Source: Methylacidiphilum kamchatkense Kam1 (GTDB lineage: Bacteria > Verrucomicrobiota > Verrucomicrobiia > Methylacidiphilales > Methylacidiphilaceae). Taken from it: a DNA stretch of 64,000 nt. Positions within the stretch are counted from its first letter, which is position 1, and each line of letters begins with the position of its first letter. The stretch covers positions 1,488,001 to 1,552,000 of the forward strand of contig NZ_CP037899.1 in assembly GCF_007475525.1 (NCBI RefSeq), in the 5' to 3' direction. The notes under the pieces are model-generated. The model was not told the DNA's origin. It was given only the letters and a program-made list of their open reading frames with translations, and did no database searches. Positions 1 to 8,269 of the stretch are shown here, piece after piece. The position numbers and the translations under genes were made by a program.

Positions 1-1614
1 CACCAGCGGAGGAGGGGAGGGAGGAGGAGCAAAAGGAGGCGGATAAGAAGATCCTTGAGGATAAGGCGGAGGGGGCAAAGGAGGAGCTCCAGGAGGAGGA
101 CCATACCCTTCTGCAGGAGGAACAGAACCAGGAAACTGAGGATAGGAAGGAGAAGATGCTGGCGAATTGGATGGAAAAGGAGGAGGAGGAAGAGGTTGAG
201 AAGAAGTGGTAGGCATATAGGGAGCAGGAGAAGCAGGGATTTGAGGGGATTGTGAAGACGGATTGGGAATTGGATTAACCCCTGATAATGCTAATCTCCT
301 ATTCTCTGCCATTTGCCTTAGTTCTTGTGCATATTGCTCTAACAATCTTTCTTTTTCTTCCCTTGCTTTGGCAGCAGCCCTTCGAAGTGCTGCGTTATGG
401 GCTGCTACTCTTGCACGCCAAGCTTTTTTCTCCTTTTCATACGAATACAAACCTCCTCCTAACCCTCCCAGTATTAGTCCACCAAGAGCTCCCCATCCGG
501 CTCCAGCTCCTCCTCCAGCAAGCCCTCCGATAAGTGCTCCTCCAGCAGCCCCTATTCCCGCTCCCTCAGCAGCAGTCGTAGGTCCACCGGTTCCAGGCTG
601 CAAATACTTAGGTTTTCGGCCAGGACTAGAAACCTCGGATTTCGCATCCATATAAACTTGAGCCGCTTGCTTATCTATTTCTTTAAGCCGATTGGCCAGA
701 TCTACCCATTGACTATCTTCTTGCCTTAGGGCTGTAGCCAGATCATAAGCTGAATAGAGGACCGTTTTTTGTGTTCCTGGGATAGTTTGTTCTGGCATCG
801 CAGCCCAAGGAAACTTATTCTCTTCATTCAAAAATTTCCATCCACCATCAGCTTGTTTTATCGCTTTTACCTTCCAATCTAAAGTAACAGGCTGATTAGC
901 TTCAAAAGCCGTTCGTTTCTGATCCTGATAATAGACCATGCCGGGTTCTTGATCCAAGGTAAAGAGAAGATCTTTAATATGAGATTTTGCCCAAGGTTGA
1001 AGATCTTTAGGAACACCCTCCAATCGCTCCTTTCCAGGAAGCACAGGCCCTACGGGTACCCAAAAAAGCGTAAGCTGCGGTTGAACCGTAACCTCATAAT
1101 CCAAATTCCACTGTCCATTTTGATCTTTAACAGCGCTCTTTTCTTTGATATCAACAAAAGCAAATCCCTTAGGGATTTGGGCTTTAATAGCTTCTTCAGC
1201 CTGAAGTAACGATGGCTTAGACTCCAAAACTTTGAAAATCCCCTTTTGACCATTTATCATTCCATTAAATAGAGGAATAACAAAAAGAAGAGCCAAAACG
1301 GCGACTATCACCAGCCCAATCCCACCGATCAATGGGAACAAAGATCTAGAACTTCTAGCTGCATATCGTGTTACCTCTTCAAGAGGCTTTTTACAAGCTT
1401 TACAGACAAATTCAGCTCCCTCAGGGACTTCAGTGATTTTTCCCGCTTCCTCACATTCTCCAAAATTAATGCATTTGCCTTTCCTTATCCCTGTAGTTCT
1501 TGCCTTTGGAGCTTCCGTTTGTTCGACAAAAAGGCCTTCCGCCTCTCTGTCTTCTATCAATCCGTTTTTTCCTAAATCCTTCGAAATCTTTTCCTTTTTC
1601 AAATCAAATCTCAT
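1..1614 (-). CDS. Zinc-ribbon / TM / extracytoplasmic protein of the tubulin-like cluster (3' end off window)
   Basis: An open frame of 538 codons begins at an ATG at 1614 and runs uninterrupted to base 1, so the C-terminus is missing. Visible parts in order: a putative zinc ribbon with Cys48 and Cys54 (C-x5-C) and Cys71 and Cys74 (F-V-C-x2-C); one TM segment at about 91-117; an extracytoplasmic alpha/beta-looking region at about 125-335; a Gly/Ala-rich glycine-zipper-like stretch at about 342-388; a charged Arg/Lys/Glu helix at about 390-435; and a Pro/Ser/Tyr-rich tail to the edge. The zinc ribbon closely resembles that of the next gene upstream (3316-1721), and the region at about 125-335 resembles the protein at 51044-52111. 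I know no family for it. Gene order suggests a partner of the tubulin-like protein. No clear Shine-Dalgarno precedes the ATG, so the exact start is uncertain. Confidence 0.75.
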   Translation of the reverse strand, partial: MRFDLKKEKISKDLGKNGLIEDREAEGLFVEQTEAPKARTTGIRKGKCINFGECEEAGKITEVPEGAEFVCKACKKPLEEVTRYAARSSRSLFPLIGGIGLVIVAVLALLFVIPLFNGMINGQKGIFKVLESKPSLLQAEEAIKAQIPKGFAFVDIKEKSAVKDQNGQWNLDYEVTVQPQLTLFWVPVGPVLPGKERLEGVPKDLQPWAKSHIKDLLFTLDQEPGMVYYQDQKRTAFEANQPVTLDWKVKAIKQADGGWKFLNEENKFPWAAMPEQTIPGTQKTVLYSAYDLATALRQEDSQWVDLANRLKEIDKQAAQVYMDAKSEVSSPGRKPKYLQPGTGGPTTAAEGAGIGAAGGALIGGLAGGGAGAGWGALGGLILGGLGGGLYSYEKEKKAWRARVAAHNAALRRAAAKAREEKERLLEQYAQELRQMAENRRLALSGVNPIPNPSSQSPQIPASPAPYMPTTSSQPLPPPPFPSNSPASSPSYPQFPGSVPPAEGYGPPPGAPPLPPPPYPQGSSYPPPFAPPPSPPPLV

Positions 1615-1720
1615 AAAGGAAATTAGTTTGTATTTAGTTTATTTGAAAATTTAATAAAAGTCACTAAAAATATTACCAATAAATCACACATTTTTTACTT
1701 TAATATTTTACTAAACCTCA

Positions 1721-3316
1721 CTATTTTTTCGCACAAAGCCAAACTTCCACTCGTCTGTTTTTTTCCCTTCCTGCTTCCGTATCGTTAGAAGCAACTGGCA
1801 TTTCCTCTCCTGCCCCAGCAACATTGACCACTGTTATTCCCTCTTTCTTCAAAGCGTTGGCAACGCTCTGTGCCCTTTCGAAGGAAAGCCCCAGATTATA
1901 AGTGTGGTTGCCTACGTTGTCCGTAAAACCAATCAACAGCACCCCCTTATCTTTATTCGCTGGTTCCAAAAGAAATTGCGCAAGCCTTTTGATATCGACA
2001 ATCCCTTTGTTATCCAATTCCTTACTGCCAAAACGAAACCGAATGTCAAAAGGCACTCTTTTGGCTCCCGTTACTAAACTTTTATATCTTTCCGATGCAT
2101 TAAGAGGAATGATATTCCCCTCATCGGCTCCTTTTGTAGGAATCGATCCGCTGCTTGCTTCTTCTATACCACTGCCGACAAAGCCCAATGATGAAACACA
2201 CTTTTGACCTTGAGTGGATAAAACATAGTGAATGAATTTATGTATCCAGGAACTATTTTTATCAGTGACATAAAGATACAACCGAAAGGCTAATGGATAC
2301 TCCTCAGTACCAATTGTAAAGCGGTTTGGTTTGAAAGCCTCAGCCCCTTTCATAAACAAAGAAAGGATCTTTACATTTCCATTAGCTCCAGAGATTTCTG
2401 AAACAGATGGATAATCTGCAATGCCTAAGCTTGTTGGATTTTCCAAAACCGCTTTTTTCACTTCTTCGACTCCTACGGCTTTAATACGAGCCCCATCAAC
2501 AGGCAGGTGCCGAAAAAAACTGGAAAGCGTTTGATTGCTACAGGATGAGCGTTGATCAGGGACAAAGAGAATAATTTTCCCTTGGTAAGGTAGATTTAGT
2601 TCCTTCCAATGCGTAATATTGCCTGCAAAGATTTTCTCTAATTGTTCTAAGCTTAGGGAATTTAGAGGATTCTGCTTATTAACCAAAACAGCAATGGCAC
2701 TCTGGCCAATAACGATTTCATGGTCTGGAGCAGTCATATCAAAAGGAAATCTTTTCAATTCTTCAGCTTGAATTTTCCGACAGGAAATTAATAGTTCGTT
2801 TTTTGCCGATACTAAATGGTCAAATCCATCTGTTGTCTTTTGAGTTTGTATGTTAATAAGGGCTTGCGTTTTATCTGGCAGCAGAAAAGAAAGCTCAGTC
2901 GATTGAGGATTTTGTTCTCTCCAACCGATCTCTTTTCCCTTGAGGTCCTCATGTAAAAATCCTAAAACCAATGGCCGAACAAGACTCTGAGCTAAACAAT
3001 CCTCAGTGGTAATGCTAAAAAGAAGCTTTGGCTGCAAAGATGAAGAAAGGCCCGCTTTTTTCTTTACAAAAGAAGAGTTTTTGAAGAAAGAAAAAGCAAT
3101 CCCGGCAAGGATTACTCCCGTCAACACTAATAAAATAAAAGGAAATGGTATAAGCGATCTTTTTTTCTTTCTTGATTCCCATTCATCAAGAGGAATAAGA
3201 CGGTTGCCACAATCAGGACAAACAAATTCTTTATCTGATTCAATTTCAATGACTACATGTTGGTCAGCCTTGGAAGGGCAATTTCCAAAATTATCGCAAA
3301 TCCCTTTTTTTGTCAT
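1721..3316 (-). CDS. Zinc-ribbon / TM / PstS-like binding domain / OmpA C-terminal domain fusion
   Basis: A 531-residue protein. N-terminal Cys7, Cys13, Cys33 and Cys36 form a predicted zinc ribbon. A single TM follows at about 56-78. Residues about 95-390 read as a PstS-type periplasmic phosphate-binding fold; the segment VNKQNPLNSLSLEQLEKIFA is very typical of that family. Residues about 415-531 are an OmpA-like peptidoglycan-binding domain with the NR-RVE signature near the end. Inferred topology: zinc ribbon in the cytoplasm, binding domain and OmpA domain outside, the latter gripping the cell wall. PstS-OmpA fusions exist in other bacteria, but a cytoplasmic zinc ribbon in front of one is unfamiliar to me. 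It lies 30 bp downstream of the tubulin-like gene and 106 bp upstream of the paralogous zinc-ribbon gene, all one strand, so probably one transcript. No pst transporter genes are nearby, so a structural or sensory role is as likely as phosphate uptake. Confidence 0.85.
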   Translation of the reverse strand: MTKKGICDNFGNCPSKADQHVVIEIESDKEFVCPDCGNRLIPLDEWESRKKKRSLIPFPFILLVLTGVILAGIAFSFFKNSSFVKKKAGLSSSLQPKLLFSITTEDCLAQSLVRPLVLGFLHEDLKGKEIGWREQNPQSTELSFLLPDKTQALINIQTQKTTDGFDHLVSAKNELLISCRKIQAEELKRFPFDMTAPDHEIVIGQSAIAVLVNKQNPLNSLSLEQLEKIFAGNITHWKELNLPYQGKIILFVPDQRSSCSNQTLSSFFRHLPVDGARIKAVGVEEVKKAVLENPTSLGIADYPSVSEISGANGNVKILSLFMKGAEAFKPNRFTIGTEEYPLAFRLYLYVTDKNSSWIHKFIHYVLSTQGQKCVSSLGFVGSGIEEASSGSIPTKGADEGNIIPLNASERYKSLVTGAKRVPFDIRFRFGSKELDNKGIVDIKRLAQFLLEPANKDKGVLLIGFTDNVGNHTYNLGLSFERAQSVANALKKEGITVVNVAGAGEEMPVASNDTEAGREKNRRVEVWLCAKK

Positions 3317-3346
3317 TGAAATGAAAAAAATAGGATCACAGGGAGA

Positions 3347-6300
3347 TCACAGTTCGCCACGAACCTTTTTTATTGCCAGTTTTCCCCAATCGGCCAACCT
3401 TCTCGATTTTGGATCGGTTGGCTTTATTGTTCCTCTTAGACTGTTAACTTTTTTGACAATCTCAGATTCGACTTCTCTTCTTTTTGGCTCTAGCTTCATC
3501 TCTGAGCTTTTAAGCAATGCCTCAATCTTCTGCTCTAAAAGTATCCCTGCTTCTTCCCTAATATTGGAAAGGGTTTCAGAAAAATCGTCTCCTCCAAGAT
3601 AAACAGGTTGATCAAACCCATATTCATCTTTTTGCATAAAGCCTAACTGCAACGCTCCAGTTTCTGTCTCAATTTTTTGAAGAATTTCTTTTTCAGTCCC
3701 ATCTTCTCCTTTTTCCTTCAGGACCATTCCTAAAAGAAGAATGGGAGCTAACCTGTCTTCCAATTCTGTTCGAGTAGGAACAAAAAGCGAAGGAAGGGTT
3801 TGGCCATCCCCTTCAATATGCAACTCCATACGGGCTCTTTTCGAATCAGAGCCATTAATTCTTTCTAAATATTTGGACTTTAGAAAAGACACATGCTGGA
3901 CAATGCGCAGAGGGAACAGGTTCGTAATGCTCACAAGGATGATTTCATTGAGCCGAGTGTCATTTTCAATAAACTCTTTGCTTGGATTACGAATACATTC
4001 AAAAAAGACTTCCTTGAGAACTTTTATGTAATCTTCCATTTCTGGAGCTTTTGGAAGGATGACTGTAAAATTTGATACAGCTATTTGTGCTGTAGGATTA
4101 ATGCCTTGTCCCACTCTTCTTTTCTCATCCGAATTAAAGATAAGATAATTGCCTGCGGCCTTAACAACGTTGTCTAAGTAGAGTCGAAGAGACTGTCTAT
4201 CCGCATATCTCTCTTTTAGTTTTTCAATAATACTCACTCCAATAAGCCGATCGCTTTCGGTCTGCACCAAATTGTTATGCGCAATCTTTGCATTTTCCAT
4301 GCATTGTCTTTCTAGAGTATCGAGAAAAACTGTCTTAGAAATCCTTTCATTTAGAGTCTTAAAATCGAGTTTTTCTCCAAGCTTTTCAGCAATAGCCGTT
4401 CTAACTCTTTGGGTTTGGGTGGTTGCTTCTTTTTGATCTTTAATCAGTCTTTTTGTAACATTTTTAACAAGCTCCGGGTCGTAAAAACGGATCACCTGTT
4501 TTCTTAAATCGATCATTGCCCCTTGATCAGAACAACGAACAGCTATTTGATCTTCAAATGCTTTAATAGATTCAGCAATCATCGATGCAGCCTTATCCAC
4601 GTCGGCCTTTAATAAAACGATTTCTTCAATGATCACAGGCAGGAATTTCTTAGCAAATTGCCAACCTTCTATTTTTGTCCGCACCGTATAGAGATCTTGC
4701 AATACAGTAGAAGCTGCATCAAAAAGTCGTTTCCTTTTCCCAAACATATCTGAAATTACACCCACTTTAGCCCACTCTTTTTGTTGTTCCGCCAATTTTT
4801 TGGCCAATTCCTCTTCCTGTGGTCTCAATTTGGTGATTTCTTCTTCTATTCGATCGAATCGAGCTTTTAAATGAGGCATTAAAGCTCCCAGAAGAGAGCT
4901 GATTTCGTGAGCGGATTTTGTTCCATTAATCCAATCAGAAAAAAGCTCACGCTCCAATTTTTGCCTTATTTCTCTGGCTCTTTCTCTAGTCGATTGACTT
5001 ACTGTCTCATAAAAAGCTTTAACACCTTGCCCTCTGTATTGCTCTTGAAACCTTGTATCCAACAAGCTTTTCAACCGATCTAACCATTTATCTGCAGTTT
5101 CCTTTCCTTGCACATATTCTTTTAAATTCGTCGTCACATTCATCCAATACCGGCTCACAGGCTGCCATTTTGAGCCTACCCCATCCGATTCAAGAATCGG
5201 AGCAGACAAAATGAAGTGTTCATCGCTGAGCATCCATCGCTCGAGCTGTTCGGGGCTACTCACATAGCTCACCATATCCAGATTCCGTGGATCGGCTAAA
5301 AAGCCATCCGTCTCTGACCAGTTGTTATAGCGAAGCTGCAAGGCTGCTTGCCGAGCAAATTGAAAGGCAATGTACTCAGAAATTTCAGATTCAGGTACAG
5401 AAAGCCTTTTGACACCAAAAGTTAAAAACCTTTTCGAACGAACAGGATCATTTGACCCGGGCAGCGTTTCAGGATTTCCGTCCCCATTCTCTGCATTCTC
5501 AGCCCGCCCGAGCGACTCCCAGTTAATGTTTCTGACTGTCACAATTTTTTGGTAAAGAAAATCAGCCAGAATGTTAGGTATATCTTCTGAGATATCTACG
5601 GCCAGTCCGTTTTCGTTGAAATTGGTAAAAACATAGCACCCATTGAAAGGCGTTTTCAGTTCTTCTAATTTTCTTCCATCCCCGGCAATGTCACAGGGAT
5701 AAAACTTGCCAATACTCAACGCATTGAGTTCAAGCAAAGCGGCATAGCCATTGGCATGATAATTTCCAGTATTCCAGTTGGGTTTCGGATGCTCTTCGGG
5801 CAGTAACGTATAAAGAACAATTCGATATTGAAGGGTATCTGGATAGTTTTTCCTTATTTGACTCACACAATCAATTAGTGTCCCACTGCCTGTTCCACCC
5901 GCCAAGCCACAACAAACATGAAAAGTAACATCCTGTTGGCCACCCTTTTGAATTTCGTTTACAAGATGGGTAAGTCTGCGACAAAATTCGTCGGCATGGC
6001 TAGCAAAAAGAAATCTTCCCAGCCTCCTTTTCTGCCCTCCGATGGCATCCCCAATAATACTATTGAGGATGTCTCTCCAAATGGTTTTGTCTCCAATCCA
6101 AGGCTGAATACCAGGATAACTAGGCAGGTCCTCAAGGATTGAAGCCAAATTGGAAGATTTTATCAAAAGTTGACTAGTTGGTGGAATTTGAACACTCTGT
6201 CCAAGAACTTTCCAACTAGGATCATCAAGACGCATCAGTTCATCGCTGGAATCAACATAAAGGTAAGAGAGCCGGACATTGGGAGGATCGATTTTCCTGA

Positions 6301-6385
6301 ATTCTTGAAAGATGGTCTTTCGGAACGCTCGTATAATTTTTCCTCCCGTTCCACCCAAACCGATAATGAGATGATTTGCATTCAT
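3347..6385 (-). CDS. Large tubulin/FtsZ-like GTPase-fold protein
   Basis: A 1012-residue protein. It opens with a Rossmann-like strand and glycine loop (GLGGTGG, about residues 9-15) and carries a tubulin-type nucleotide signature GLAGGTGSGT at about 160-169, the equivalent of the FtsZ/tubulin GGGTGS/TG loop. The following segment (about 200-300, with conserved NGYAALLEL and FTNFNENG) matches my memory of the Pfam Tubulin_2 type (tubulin-like, function unknown). From about 400 on it is mostly helical, with a likely coiled coil around 480-560 and a long helical C-terminus. It has no TM segment or signal peptide, so it should be cytosolic. It is far longer than FtsZ (about 380-400). The gene downstream starts after 30 bp; the membrane gene 6555-7319 lies 169 bp upstream. 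GTP binding and polymerisation are inferred from the motif only. Confidence 0.82.
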   Translation of the reverse strand: MNANHLIIGLGGTGGKIIRAFRKTIFQEFRKIDPPNVRLSYLYVDSSDELMRLDDPSWKVLGQSVQIPPTSQLLIKSSNLASILEDLPSYPGIQPWIGDKTIWRDILNSIIGDAIGGQKRRLGRFLFASHADEFCRRLTHLVNEIQKGGQQDVTFHVCCGLAGGTGSGTLIDCVSQIRKNYPDTLQYRIVLYTLLPEEHPKPNWNTGNYHANGYAALLELNALSIGKFYPCDIAGDGRKLEELKTPFNGCYVFTNFNENGLAVDISEDIPNILADFLYQKIVTVRNINWESLGRAENAENGDGNPETLPGSNDPVRSKRFLTFGVKRLSVPESEISEYIAFQFARQAALQLRYNNWSETDGFLADPRNLDMVSYVSSPEQLERWMLSDEHFILSAPILESDGVGSKWQPVSRYWMNVTTNLKEYVQGKETADKWLDRLKSLLDTRFQEQYRGQGVKAFYETVSQSTRERAREIRQKLERELFSDWINGTKSAHEISSLLGALMPHLKARFDRIEEEITKLRPQEEELAKKLAEQQKEWAKVGVISDMFGKRKRLFDAASTVLQDLYTVRTKIEGWQFAKKFLPVIIEEIVLLKADVDKAASMIAESIKAFEDQIAVRCSDQGAMIDLRKQVIRFYDPELVKNVTKRLIKDQKEATTQTQRVRTAIAEKLGEKLDFKTLNERISKTVFLDTLERQCMENAKIAHNNLVQTESDRLIGVSIIEKLKERYADRQSLRLYLDNVVKAAGNYLIFNSDEKRRVGQGINPTAQIAVSNFTVILPKAPEMEDYIKVLKEVFFECIRNPSKEFIENDTRLNEIILVSITNLFPLRIVQHVSFLKSKYLERINGSDSKRARMELHIEGDGQTLPSLFVPTRTELEDRLAPILLLGMVLKEKGEDGTEKEILQKIETETGALQLGFMQKDEYGFDQPVYLGGDDFSETLSNIREEAGILLEQKIEALLKSSEMKLEPKRREVESEIVKKVNSLRGTIKPTDPKSRRLADWGKLAIKKVRGEL

Positions 6386-6554
6386 TTTTTAAGGTTCAAT
6401 GCTTCTCCCCAAAGTTCGAGATGTTTTTAATCGCTTCAAATCCGACCTGGCCTTTCCCCTACACACAAGCAAAGATCCTTTCTGTCTTACTGTATTGTGT
6501 TAAAATCACCACTTTTGTAAATACAGAACTTGTATTTTTTTTGCAGTTAAAAAA

Positions 6555-7319
6555 CTAAGTCCTGACTCGAATGTCCTGATAAGCTGCCCATCCAATCAAG
6601 CTAAAAGGGATAAGCTGAAAGACAACAAAAAGCAATGCAAGAATCGACCGGGATAAAACAACGAGCCTTCCCATTTGAGAATCGAGAATTGAAATGAGGT
6701 AGTAGGTAACGATTTTGAGAGCCCTATCCACAGGATATACTTGAGGGCTACTTTGGAAAAAAGCGTTCATGTCTTGGAGTAGAGCTCGGCTGGGTACAGA
6801 AACATCTGGGCGGATAATCAAAGAAAGAGCAGGATGATTTTTTGAAAAATCGTATGCTGCATTCCTTGCATAGATATTGGCTACAATCGCTCTGGAATAG
6901 GGATCTATCAATGGAACGAATTGAGCTTGGGGGGGAGGAAGAAACTTTTCTCTTCCACTGACTCGAATCGCTTCATAAGATTGAGCTAGAGTCCAATCTT
7001 CCCAACGAGAATCCTTTAAAATTTTGGAAGCCCAATTAAAAACTATCAGTTTGCCAACCTCCTTAGAATATTTCAAAGAAAAAAAGCAGATCACAAAAAG
7101 AGTCGTTGCAAGGGCCGCTAAACCACAAAAAAAATGATGGATCGGATTGGCCCTAAATTTTTTATTCCATAGGAGAGTATAGGTACTGGCAATTATCCAG
7201 CACACAGCCCCTAGCAACGCTCCGATTGCCATGGAATAAAAAAAAAGAGGAAGCTCTTTTTTAAGCATATAAGAAAAAGAAGCAGAAAGCAGCCAAAAGA
7301 ATATCTTAAAATACACCAT
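6555..7319 (-). CDS. Multi-pass membrane protein heading the tubulin-like cluster
   Basis: A 254-residue protein with hydrophobic segments at about 5-20, 25-48, 62-84 and 218-245, and a soluble stretch of about 130 residues between the third and fourth. The soluble part includes a Pro/Gln-rich piece (about 128-140). I do not recognise the family. It is on the same strand as, and immediately upstream of, the tubulin-like gene, so it may anchor the complex at the cytoplasmic membrane; this is inferred from position only. The 169-bp gap to the next gene leaves room for a separate promoter, so co-transcription is not certain. Confidence 0.7.
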   Translation of the reverse strand: MVYFKIFFWLLSASFSYMLKKELPLFFYSMAIGALLGAVCWIIASTYTLLWNKKFRANPIHHFFCGLAALATTLFVICFFSLKYSKEVGKLIVFNWASKILKDSRWEDWTLAQSYEAIRVSGREKFLPPPQAQFVPLIDPYSRAIVANIYARNAAYDFSKNHPALSLIIRPDVSVPSRALLQDMNAFFQSSPQVYPVDRALKIVTYYLISILDSQMGRLVVLSRSILALLFVVFQLIPFSLIGWAAYQDIRVRT

Positions 7320-7531: not shown

Positions 7532-8269
7532 TTAATTCAATGTTTGTTTTTTGGCAAACAAGGATTCATAGTCAGCAAGATACTGACTAAAAGCATCGTT
7601 ACCATATATGATGCGAGCGGTATCAAGAAAATTTTTTTCATCCTCATATTTTTTTTGGAACCGACACAGTGCTGCCCTAGCGAAATAATAGCCAGGAGAA
7701 GCTTCATCAAAAGCACTTAATTTAGAAAGCAAATTCTCTGCACCTAAAAGCCTTCCTAATCCAATTTCACAATAGATCCTTTTCAAGAGGATTTCTTTGT
7801 TCATAGGATCATGTAATGCCGCTTGTTCGAACCGATACAATGCTTCTTTGAAATCTTTTTTTGCAAAGAAAACCTCTCCTAAATATTGATAGGCGGGACC
7901 ATAATCTGGTTGTATTTTGAAAACCTTATACAACTCTTTTTCTGCCCTTTCATAATCCTTCTGCTTTAAATAGATCCTGGCGGCTAAAACGATCGTACGT
8001 GGATCATTTGGCCTTAATTCTATAGCCCTAGAAATAGCTTTTTGCGCTTCCTCCAATTTGAGCCTTTTAAAGGCCACCAGAGCATCCTGATAGGCTTGAA
8101 AAAAAACCTTATCCTTTTCTTTTTGATTCTCCAACACCTCACTCCATCCCCATGTTCCTCTCCATAAAATAAAAATAGTGGTAGTTGCCCAAAAAACGTA
8201 TAAAAGCTCTTCCCTTTTTATCCTAAAAAGTCTAATTGGTCTTTTTTTATTATTCAATCCCCTGCTCAC
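7532..8269 (-). CDS. Membrane-anchored TPR protein
   Basis: A 245-residue protein. A basic N-terminus is followed by one hydrophobic segment at about 22-40, then at least four tetratricopeptide-type helical pairs between about 55 and 220, for example AYQDALVAFKRLKLEEAQKA and AYQYLGEVFFAKKDFKEALY with the typical A/G-Y-A spacing. TPR repeats mediate protein-protein contacts; no catalytic motif is visible. The domain probably faces the periplasm, although orientation cannot be read with certainty. The gene ends just upstream of tRNA-Cys. It may or may not belong to the tubulin-like cluster, from which the tRNA separates it. Confidence 0.75.
   Translation of the reverse strand: MSRGLNNKKRPIRLFRIKREELLYVFWATTTIFILWRGTWGWSEVLENQKEKDKVFFQAYQDALVAFKRLKLEEAQKAISRAIELRPNDPRTIVLAARIYLKQKDYERAEKELYKVFKIQPDYGPAYQYLGEVFFAKKDFKEALYRFEQAALHDPMNKEILLKRIYCEIGLGRLLGAENLLSKLSAFDEASPGYYFARAALCRFQKKYEDEKNFLDTARIIYGNDAFSQYLADYESLFAKKQTLN

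Follow-up and report, generated by a model that had tools for sequence, protein, structure and literature searches.

The window analysed here is the whole stretch of 64,000 nucleotides, taken from the 2.20 Mb genome of a verrucomicrobial methanotroph. At its beginning lies a cluster of five same-strand genes, four within the window and the fifth just outside it, transcribed in the order memA, Tub, ZnR-TM-PBP-OmpA, ZnR-TM-Gly and memB:

6555..7319, minus strand: memA, 254 aa, membrane protein with three TM segments
3347..6385, minus strand: Tub, 1012 aa, Tubulin_2 / FtsZl1 protein
1721..3316, minus strand: ZnR-TM-PBP-OmpA, 531 aa, inner-membrane protein
1..1614, minus strand: ZnR-TM-Gly, inner-membrane protein, 538 aa in the window; the whole gene (539 aa) is at L002:17995-19614
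L002:17069-17785, outside the window: memB, 238 aa, paralogue of memA (phmmer 2e-47)

The final residue and the stop codon of ZnR-TM-Gly fall outside the window. The intergenic gaps between the first four genes were 169, 30 and 106 bases, followed by approximately 210 bases before memB. The cluster is surrounded by housekeeping genes (zwf, pgl, pmo, pntB and protoglobin), with the pmo-type genes located at about 11-13 kb of the window. The four same-strand reading frames of the original prediction were all present at their predicted positions on the minus strand; as a set they were real and incomplete, the fifth gene, memB, having been missed beyond the window edge. In this genome, memB starts with a TTG right after a T-run (L002:17785-17850), and its N-terminus is approximately 14 residues longer in congeners, which points to a frame change or a sequencing error.

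The comparison with two congeners gave dN/dS values of 0.05 for Tub and 0.08-0.19 for the other cluster genes. These values exclude chance as the origin of the open reading frames and indicate, from codon comparison, that the cluster genes are under strong purifying selection. Scans for promoters and terminators at the cluster gave no more matches than expected from shuffled sequence. The TPR gene at 7532-8269, a possible further member, was rejected, as it remains with the flanking genes in the congener G072 despite the loss of the tubulin gene there, and does not accompany the cluster elsewhere.

The Tub protein matched the Pfam family Tubulin_2 (PF13809) with an E value of 3.7e-60 and 204 bits (cut-off 27). 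Its predicted architecture comprises an N-terminal tubulin-like GTPase domain, a long helical middle part and a helical C-terminus, with the following features:

5345..6370, minus strand: Tubulin_2 domain, residues 6-347, by Pfam match and fold match
6341..6361, minus strand: GLGGTGG, residues 9-15, first nucleotide loop, GLGGxGG invariant
5879..5899, minus strand: GGTGSGT, residues 163-169, tubulin/FtsZ signature (T4 loop), GGTGSG invariant in the alignment
4532..4918, minus strand: long helices, likely coiled coil, residues about 490-618

Individual helices were predicted at residues 492-539 and 550-618, in a low-confidence part of the model that also includes the helical C-terminus, and residues 447-542 gave weak coiled-coil-type Pfam matches. 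Tub was 63-64% identical to the protein of Methylacidimicrobium and, over its full length, 33% identical to that of Paraburkholderia. The tubulin fold of the N-terminal part is supported by an AlphaFold2 model, since the 50 best PDB matches (Foldseek, VIA-align 2) were all tubulin, gamma-tubulin, CetZ or FtsZ. The top 50 had Z scores of 13-15.6 and covered residues 2-285, sometimes extending to residue 345. The best VIA-align 2 match covered 190 residues between positions 3 and 283 at an rmsd of 3.5 A; its Z score of 15.6 upholds the tubulin assignment first made from the sequence, but in a model that was built from seven close sequences and was poor overall (pLDDT 43). The Foldseek E values exceeded 0.001, every match listed being a tubulin, and a PDB sequence search with Tub gave marginal tubulin matches only.

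The two genes downstream of Tub encode bitopic proteins of modular composition. The features of the PBP-OmpA protein are:

3194..3304, minus strand: zinc ribbon, residues 5-41, with C7, C13, C33 and C36 invariant
3086..3154, minus strand: TM segment by hydropathy, residues about 55-77, preceded by RKKKR
2174..3028, minus strand: PstS-like periplasmic binding domain, residues about 97-381 (PBP_like_2, 2.7e-20)
1754..2041, minus strand: OmpA domain, residues 426-521 (OmpA, 6.4e-19, and solved OmpA homologues)

Those of the Gly-zipper protein are:

1375..1482, minus strand: zinc ribbon by cross-profile matches, residues 45-80
1261..1335, minus strand: TM segment, residues about 94-118 (predicted helix 96-120)
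751..1209, minus strand: extracytoplasmic alpha/beta domain, residues about 136-288, by predicted structure
445..579, minus strand: glycine zipper, residues about 346-390, by predicted helices
1..279, minus strand: proline-rich low-confidence tail, residues 446-538

The PstS-like domain also matched TIGR02136 at 9e-25, below the curated cut-off of that family. OmpA-type domains grip the diaminopimelate of peptidoglycan through an Asp and an Arg spaced by 15 residues, and the expected pair, D466 and R481, was invariant in the OmpA domain of the cluster. The alpha/beta domain of the Gly-zipper protein is without a known fold, a Foldseek search with this protein having returned no significant match, and the glycine zipper weakly matched the glycine-zipper stretches of NCBIfam PdsO and YiaD. 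The domains predicted initially (tubulin, zinc ribbon with TM segment, PstS-like and OmpA) were borne out by the Tubulin_2, zinc-ribbon/TM, PBP_like_2 and OmpA matches. The description of the 538-aa protein as zinc ribbon, TM segment and extracytoplasmic part was correct in all three elements and had left the glycine zipper and the proline-rich tail unmentioned.

The ribbon and the TM segment are common to the 531-aa and the 538-aa proteins, which are unrelated beyond the TM segment. A profile of the OmpA-protein ribbons found the 538-aa protein at 1.1e-8, and the reverse profile, made from the Gly-zipper ribbons, found the OmpA-protein ribbons at 1e-12. Since basic residues precede the TM segment (positive-inside rule), the ribbons of both bitopic proteins are predicted to lie in the cytosol. 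In Paraburkholderia, a zinc-ribbon/TM/TPR protein is encoded directly after the tubulin gene, and a ribbon profile built without this protein still found it (3.3e-6). The same ribbon/TM module is therefore present on three unrelated extracytoplasmic parts (PBP-OmpA, Gly-zipper and, in Paraburkholderia, TPR), which implies at least two fusions to different envelope modules here and a third in Paraburkholderia. Because this one module is carried by three unrelated envelope parts and lies nearly always beside tubulin genes, the zinc ribbon is probably the tubulin-docking part, as judged from this shared context. Among 376 genomes of the phylum, ribbon scores of 58-104 bits were obtained in Methylacidiphilaceae only, the next best genome reaching 25.5 bits, and the profile search found no zinc ribbon in the tubulin clusters of other Verrucomicrobiota.

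The envelope modules themselves occur elsewhere on other N-termini. The PBP-OmpA module is joined to a kinase in G125, where a Ser/Thr kinase-TM-PBP-OmpA fusion is encoded at L032:1456-3807, and to an unrelated part in Pseudoalteromonas. The Gly-zipper module is found with an N-terminal domain that reads as GYF_2-like or with no cytosolic domain at all. The window's genome encodes a second alpha/beta and Gly-zipper protein, which lacks the zinc ribbon (L087:5782-6975), and L089 carries the same module with an apparent GYF_2-like N-terminus. In G042, the PBP-OmpA gene (L019:5748-7376) is interrupted within its ribbon by a frame change, either real or a sequencing error.

The TM segments of memA were placed at about residues 23-41, 59-81 and 216-240, leaving a loop of approximately 130 residues between the second and the third. 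The protein bears the motifs LWN(K/R) and AAYxDI(K/R) on the predicted cytosolic side, had no match in Pfam or NCBIfam, and was restricted to Methylacidiphilaceae among the 376 phylum genomes.

The mem, Tub, ZnR-PBP-OmpA and ZnR-Gly genes stay together in Methylacidimicrobium and in related MAGs, so the gene order extends beyond a single genus, one of the two points on which the original prediction could have failed. In the compared stretches, no flanking gene was common to Methylacidimicrobium and Methylacidiphilum; the neighbours in the former were PNPase, PFK, radical SAM enzymes and Slp lipoproteins. A single-protein query of the genome contigs matched only in Methylacidiphilaceae, and the viral contigs searched gave no match; phyla other than Verrucomicrobiota were sampled through plasmids only. 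The distribution of Tubulin_2 was patchy: 16 of the 388 phylum genomes had a match at E ≤ 0.001, 11 of them above the cut-off. Weak PF13809 matches with E near 1e-4 occurred in six further genomes. G008, a genome of a third genus of the family, was without tubulin. In the congener G072, synteny is preserved on both sides of the locus; memA, Tub, PBP-OmpA and memB have been lost and ZnR-Gly has been kept (L066:6791-8323). Given this retention without tubulin, ZnR-Gly may function on its own or represent a remnant.

More distant relatives were found in three genomes of another verrucomicrobial family (f4, g6), whose Tub proteins matched that of the window at 1e-31 to 1e-36. They are flanked by 3-TM proteins, mostly with LWNK and DIK motifs, whose homology to those of the cluster rests on 29 columns. 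In two of the three genomes, Tub adjoins a TM-coiled-coil-PBP-OmpA protein (hhalign E 1.5e-14), and ZorB-like and MotA-like proteins also lie beside it. The loci of G229 (L025:970-11699) and G096 (L026:604-11653) combine Tubulin_2 with a ZorB-like OmpA protein (PADLOC 4e-25, G096), a MotA/ZorA-like protein whose tail is a long coiled coil, a TM-PBP-OmpA protein and 3-TM proteins; these clusters may encode a tubulin system with an ion-driven motor. The PDB profile search with the MotA-like proteins returned mainly coiled-coil noise, and the ZorA/MotA identity therefore rests on weak profile matches and a motif. On plasmid p2 of Azospirillum (L056:5895-20753), Tubulin_2 lies amid OmpA, caspase-family and DUF4384 genes, and a DUF4384 gene (L048:10863-11957) precedes the tubulin gene of Paraburkholderia.

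The reading that we favour, with a probability of roughly 0.55, is that the cluster encodes a GTP-dependent, wall-attached scaffold of the inner membrane, built on an FtsZl1-type GTPase. Cytosolic Tub would be recruited to the membrane by the zinc ribbons of the two single-pass proteins, probably with the help of the cytosolic loops of the 3-TM proteins. One single-pass protein would grip peptidoglycan through the OmpA domain located behind its PstS-like domain, and the second would contribute a glycine-zipper module outside. The GTP-dependent assembly of Tub could then cluster or gate the wall anchors, giving rise to a scaffold on the inner membrane with a topology analogous to MotB/Pal-type anchoring. 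The present analysis supports the domains, the predicted topology, the conservation of the unit, the N-terminal tubulin fold and the retention of the peptidoglycan-binding residues; from these we infer ribbon docking, GTP-driven assembly and a role in envelope organisation or remodelling. The path from cytosol through membrane to peptidoglycan, proposed at the outset, agrees with the ribbon/TM/OmpA layout. A wider version, in which the zinc ribbon is a dedicated adaptor between the tubulin-like GTPase and exchangeable modules of the envelope, GTP-driven assembly in the cytosol switches the peptidoglycan anchors on the other side of the inner membrane, and the relatives share this role with a ZorAB-like ion-driven motor, is much more tentative and in our judgement doubtful. 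If true, it would describe a machine of tubulin, motor and cell wall that has not been described previously.

Part of the evidence on relatives would also fit an NTP-dependent anti-phage conflict system, in which tubulin assembles upon infection, with the membrane proteins acting as sensors or executors at the envelope. Predicted conflict systems that include tubulin genes have been described in Firmicutes and Actinobacteria (Kaur et al. 2020, PMC7159879). A plasmid of Meiothermus taiwanensis (L057:941-14137) carries vWA, Tubulin_2 and a hypothetical gene between HmaC/DUF1156 and brxL, an arrangement that suggests a tubulin-containing defence locus. The ZorB-like protein (4e-25) with its MotA-like partner in related verrucomicrobial clusters, the patchiness of Tubulin_2 and the loss of the cluster in a congener point the same way. 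The cluster itself, however, contains no nuclease, helicase, protease or other effector and no vWA or P-loop GTPase gene, PADLOC gave no match for Tub or the 3-TM proteins, and the neighbours are housekeeping genes in both Methylacidiphilum and Methylacidimicrobium. Defence is thus a live rival for the wider Tubulin_2 family and less so for the cluster in the window, for which we consider it quite unlikely.

An envelope sensor, in which the PBP-OmpA protein senses a periplasmic ligand or the condition of the wall and passes a signal through the ribbon to Tub as a switch-like GTPase that forms no filament, would agree with the presence of the same module on the Ser/Thr kinase of G125 and on another N-terminal part in Pseudoalteromonas. 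The T6-H7 elements required in known filaments were not confidently identified in FtsZl1 proteins, and a referee of that work suggested that the family acts in transport or signalling (PMC2875224). Yet the conserved unit lacks a kinase, regulator or transporter, and two different outer parts on one ribbon fit better with anchoring to a single cytosolic partner; we regard the sensor as unlikely. A divergent FtsZ paralogue acting in cell division is very improbable. Tub does belong to the tubulin superfamily, and in Methylacidiphilum several division genes have been lost and ftsZ evolves fast (PMC2474590). The FtsZ_C domain (PF12327) had no match in six Methylacidiphilaceae genomes (G000, G042, G054, G072, G263 and G008), although all five of these that were tested for PF00091 were positive, so the C-terminal domain of FtsZ seems strongly diverged. 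Against a division role, all five genomes of the family that were tested had a separate FtsZ (PF00091), whether the cluster was present or absent; that of the window's genome matched at 1.3e-22. Tub scored 22 bits with PF00091, below the cut-off of 33, FtsZ_C was not detected in it, and the cluster is missing from the congener G072. Since canonical FtsZ is encoded elsewhere in the genome, Tub is not the division FtsZ.

The proposed wall-attached scaffold has partial counterparts among known systems. Like the GAP1-N2-type systems of Kaur et al. (2020), it pairs tubulin with a predicted coiled-coil/helical C-terminus and membrane partners, but a Pfam search found no GAP1-N2, TRAFAC GTPase or vWA gene in the cluster. 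With MotB, Pal and ZorB the PBP-OmpA protein shares a single TM segment and, on the periplasmic side, an OmpA domain that has the Asp and Arg for binding (ZorB profile 1.3e-12), whereas the cluster lacks a MotA/ZorA partner and adds the PstS-like domain and a cytosolic ribbon. Of the Zorya components (ZorA, ZorB, and ZorC/ZorD or ZorE), only the OmpA domain of ZorB finds a match, and no MotA-like gene is present in the window cluster. The TM-PBP-OmpA order also occurs in RefSeq proteins named 'phosphate ABC transporter substrate-binding/OmpA family', with 31% identity to a Pseudoalteromonas protein; the cytosolic part of the latter is not a zinc ribbon, and its gene has no adjacent tubulin gene.

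The tubulin family of the cluster is FtsZl1 (Pfam PF13809, Tubulin_2), published in 2010 by Makarova and Koonin (PMC2875224). Their tree includes Methylacidiphilum infernorum V4, which groups with Polaromonas apart from the main bacterial branch; OmpA-family neighbours were reported, and membrane remodelling was proposed. The claim of the original prediction that no described system has this set is therefore not sustained, as the family, its OmpA link and a Methylacidiphilum member were already in that paper. The set of zinc-ribbon/TM fusions is unmentioned in its main text, in which the word 'zinc' is absent, and a literature search, supplements aside, found no paper on this set; it likewise found no experimental study of FtsZl1/Tubulin_2. 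The cluster shares with FtsZl1 the N-terminal FtsZ/tubulin domain, the OmpA-family and TM neighbours, and the conventional FtsZ encoded in the same genomes; the helical middle and C-terminus would also agree, as far as the low-confidence model predicts them. It differs in that most FtsZl1 operons have a vWA neighbour and many a P-loop GTPase or kinase, none of which turned up in the proteins of the cluster or in those tested from its near neighbourhood. A further difference, which the text of that paper does not describe, is that OmpA sits on a bitopic protein of the inner membrane whose cytosolic part is a zinc ribbon. A referee had objected that an FtsZ-like protein in the cytosol would be unable to act together with partners bound to the wall; as OmpA here belongs to a protein that spans the inner membrane and has a cytosolic domain, this objection is answered for the Methylacidiphilum branch, and such membrane-to-wall connectors suggest how a tubulin-like protein could reach the wall. 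The tubulin family itself is known, and what is new is the anatomy, with one ribbon/TM module on three unrelated envelope parts, through which a vague association of tubulin with OmpA becomes a specific, testable docking model.
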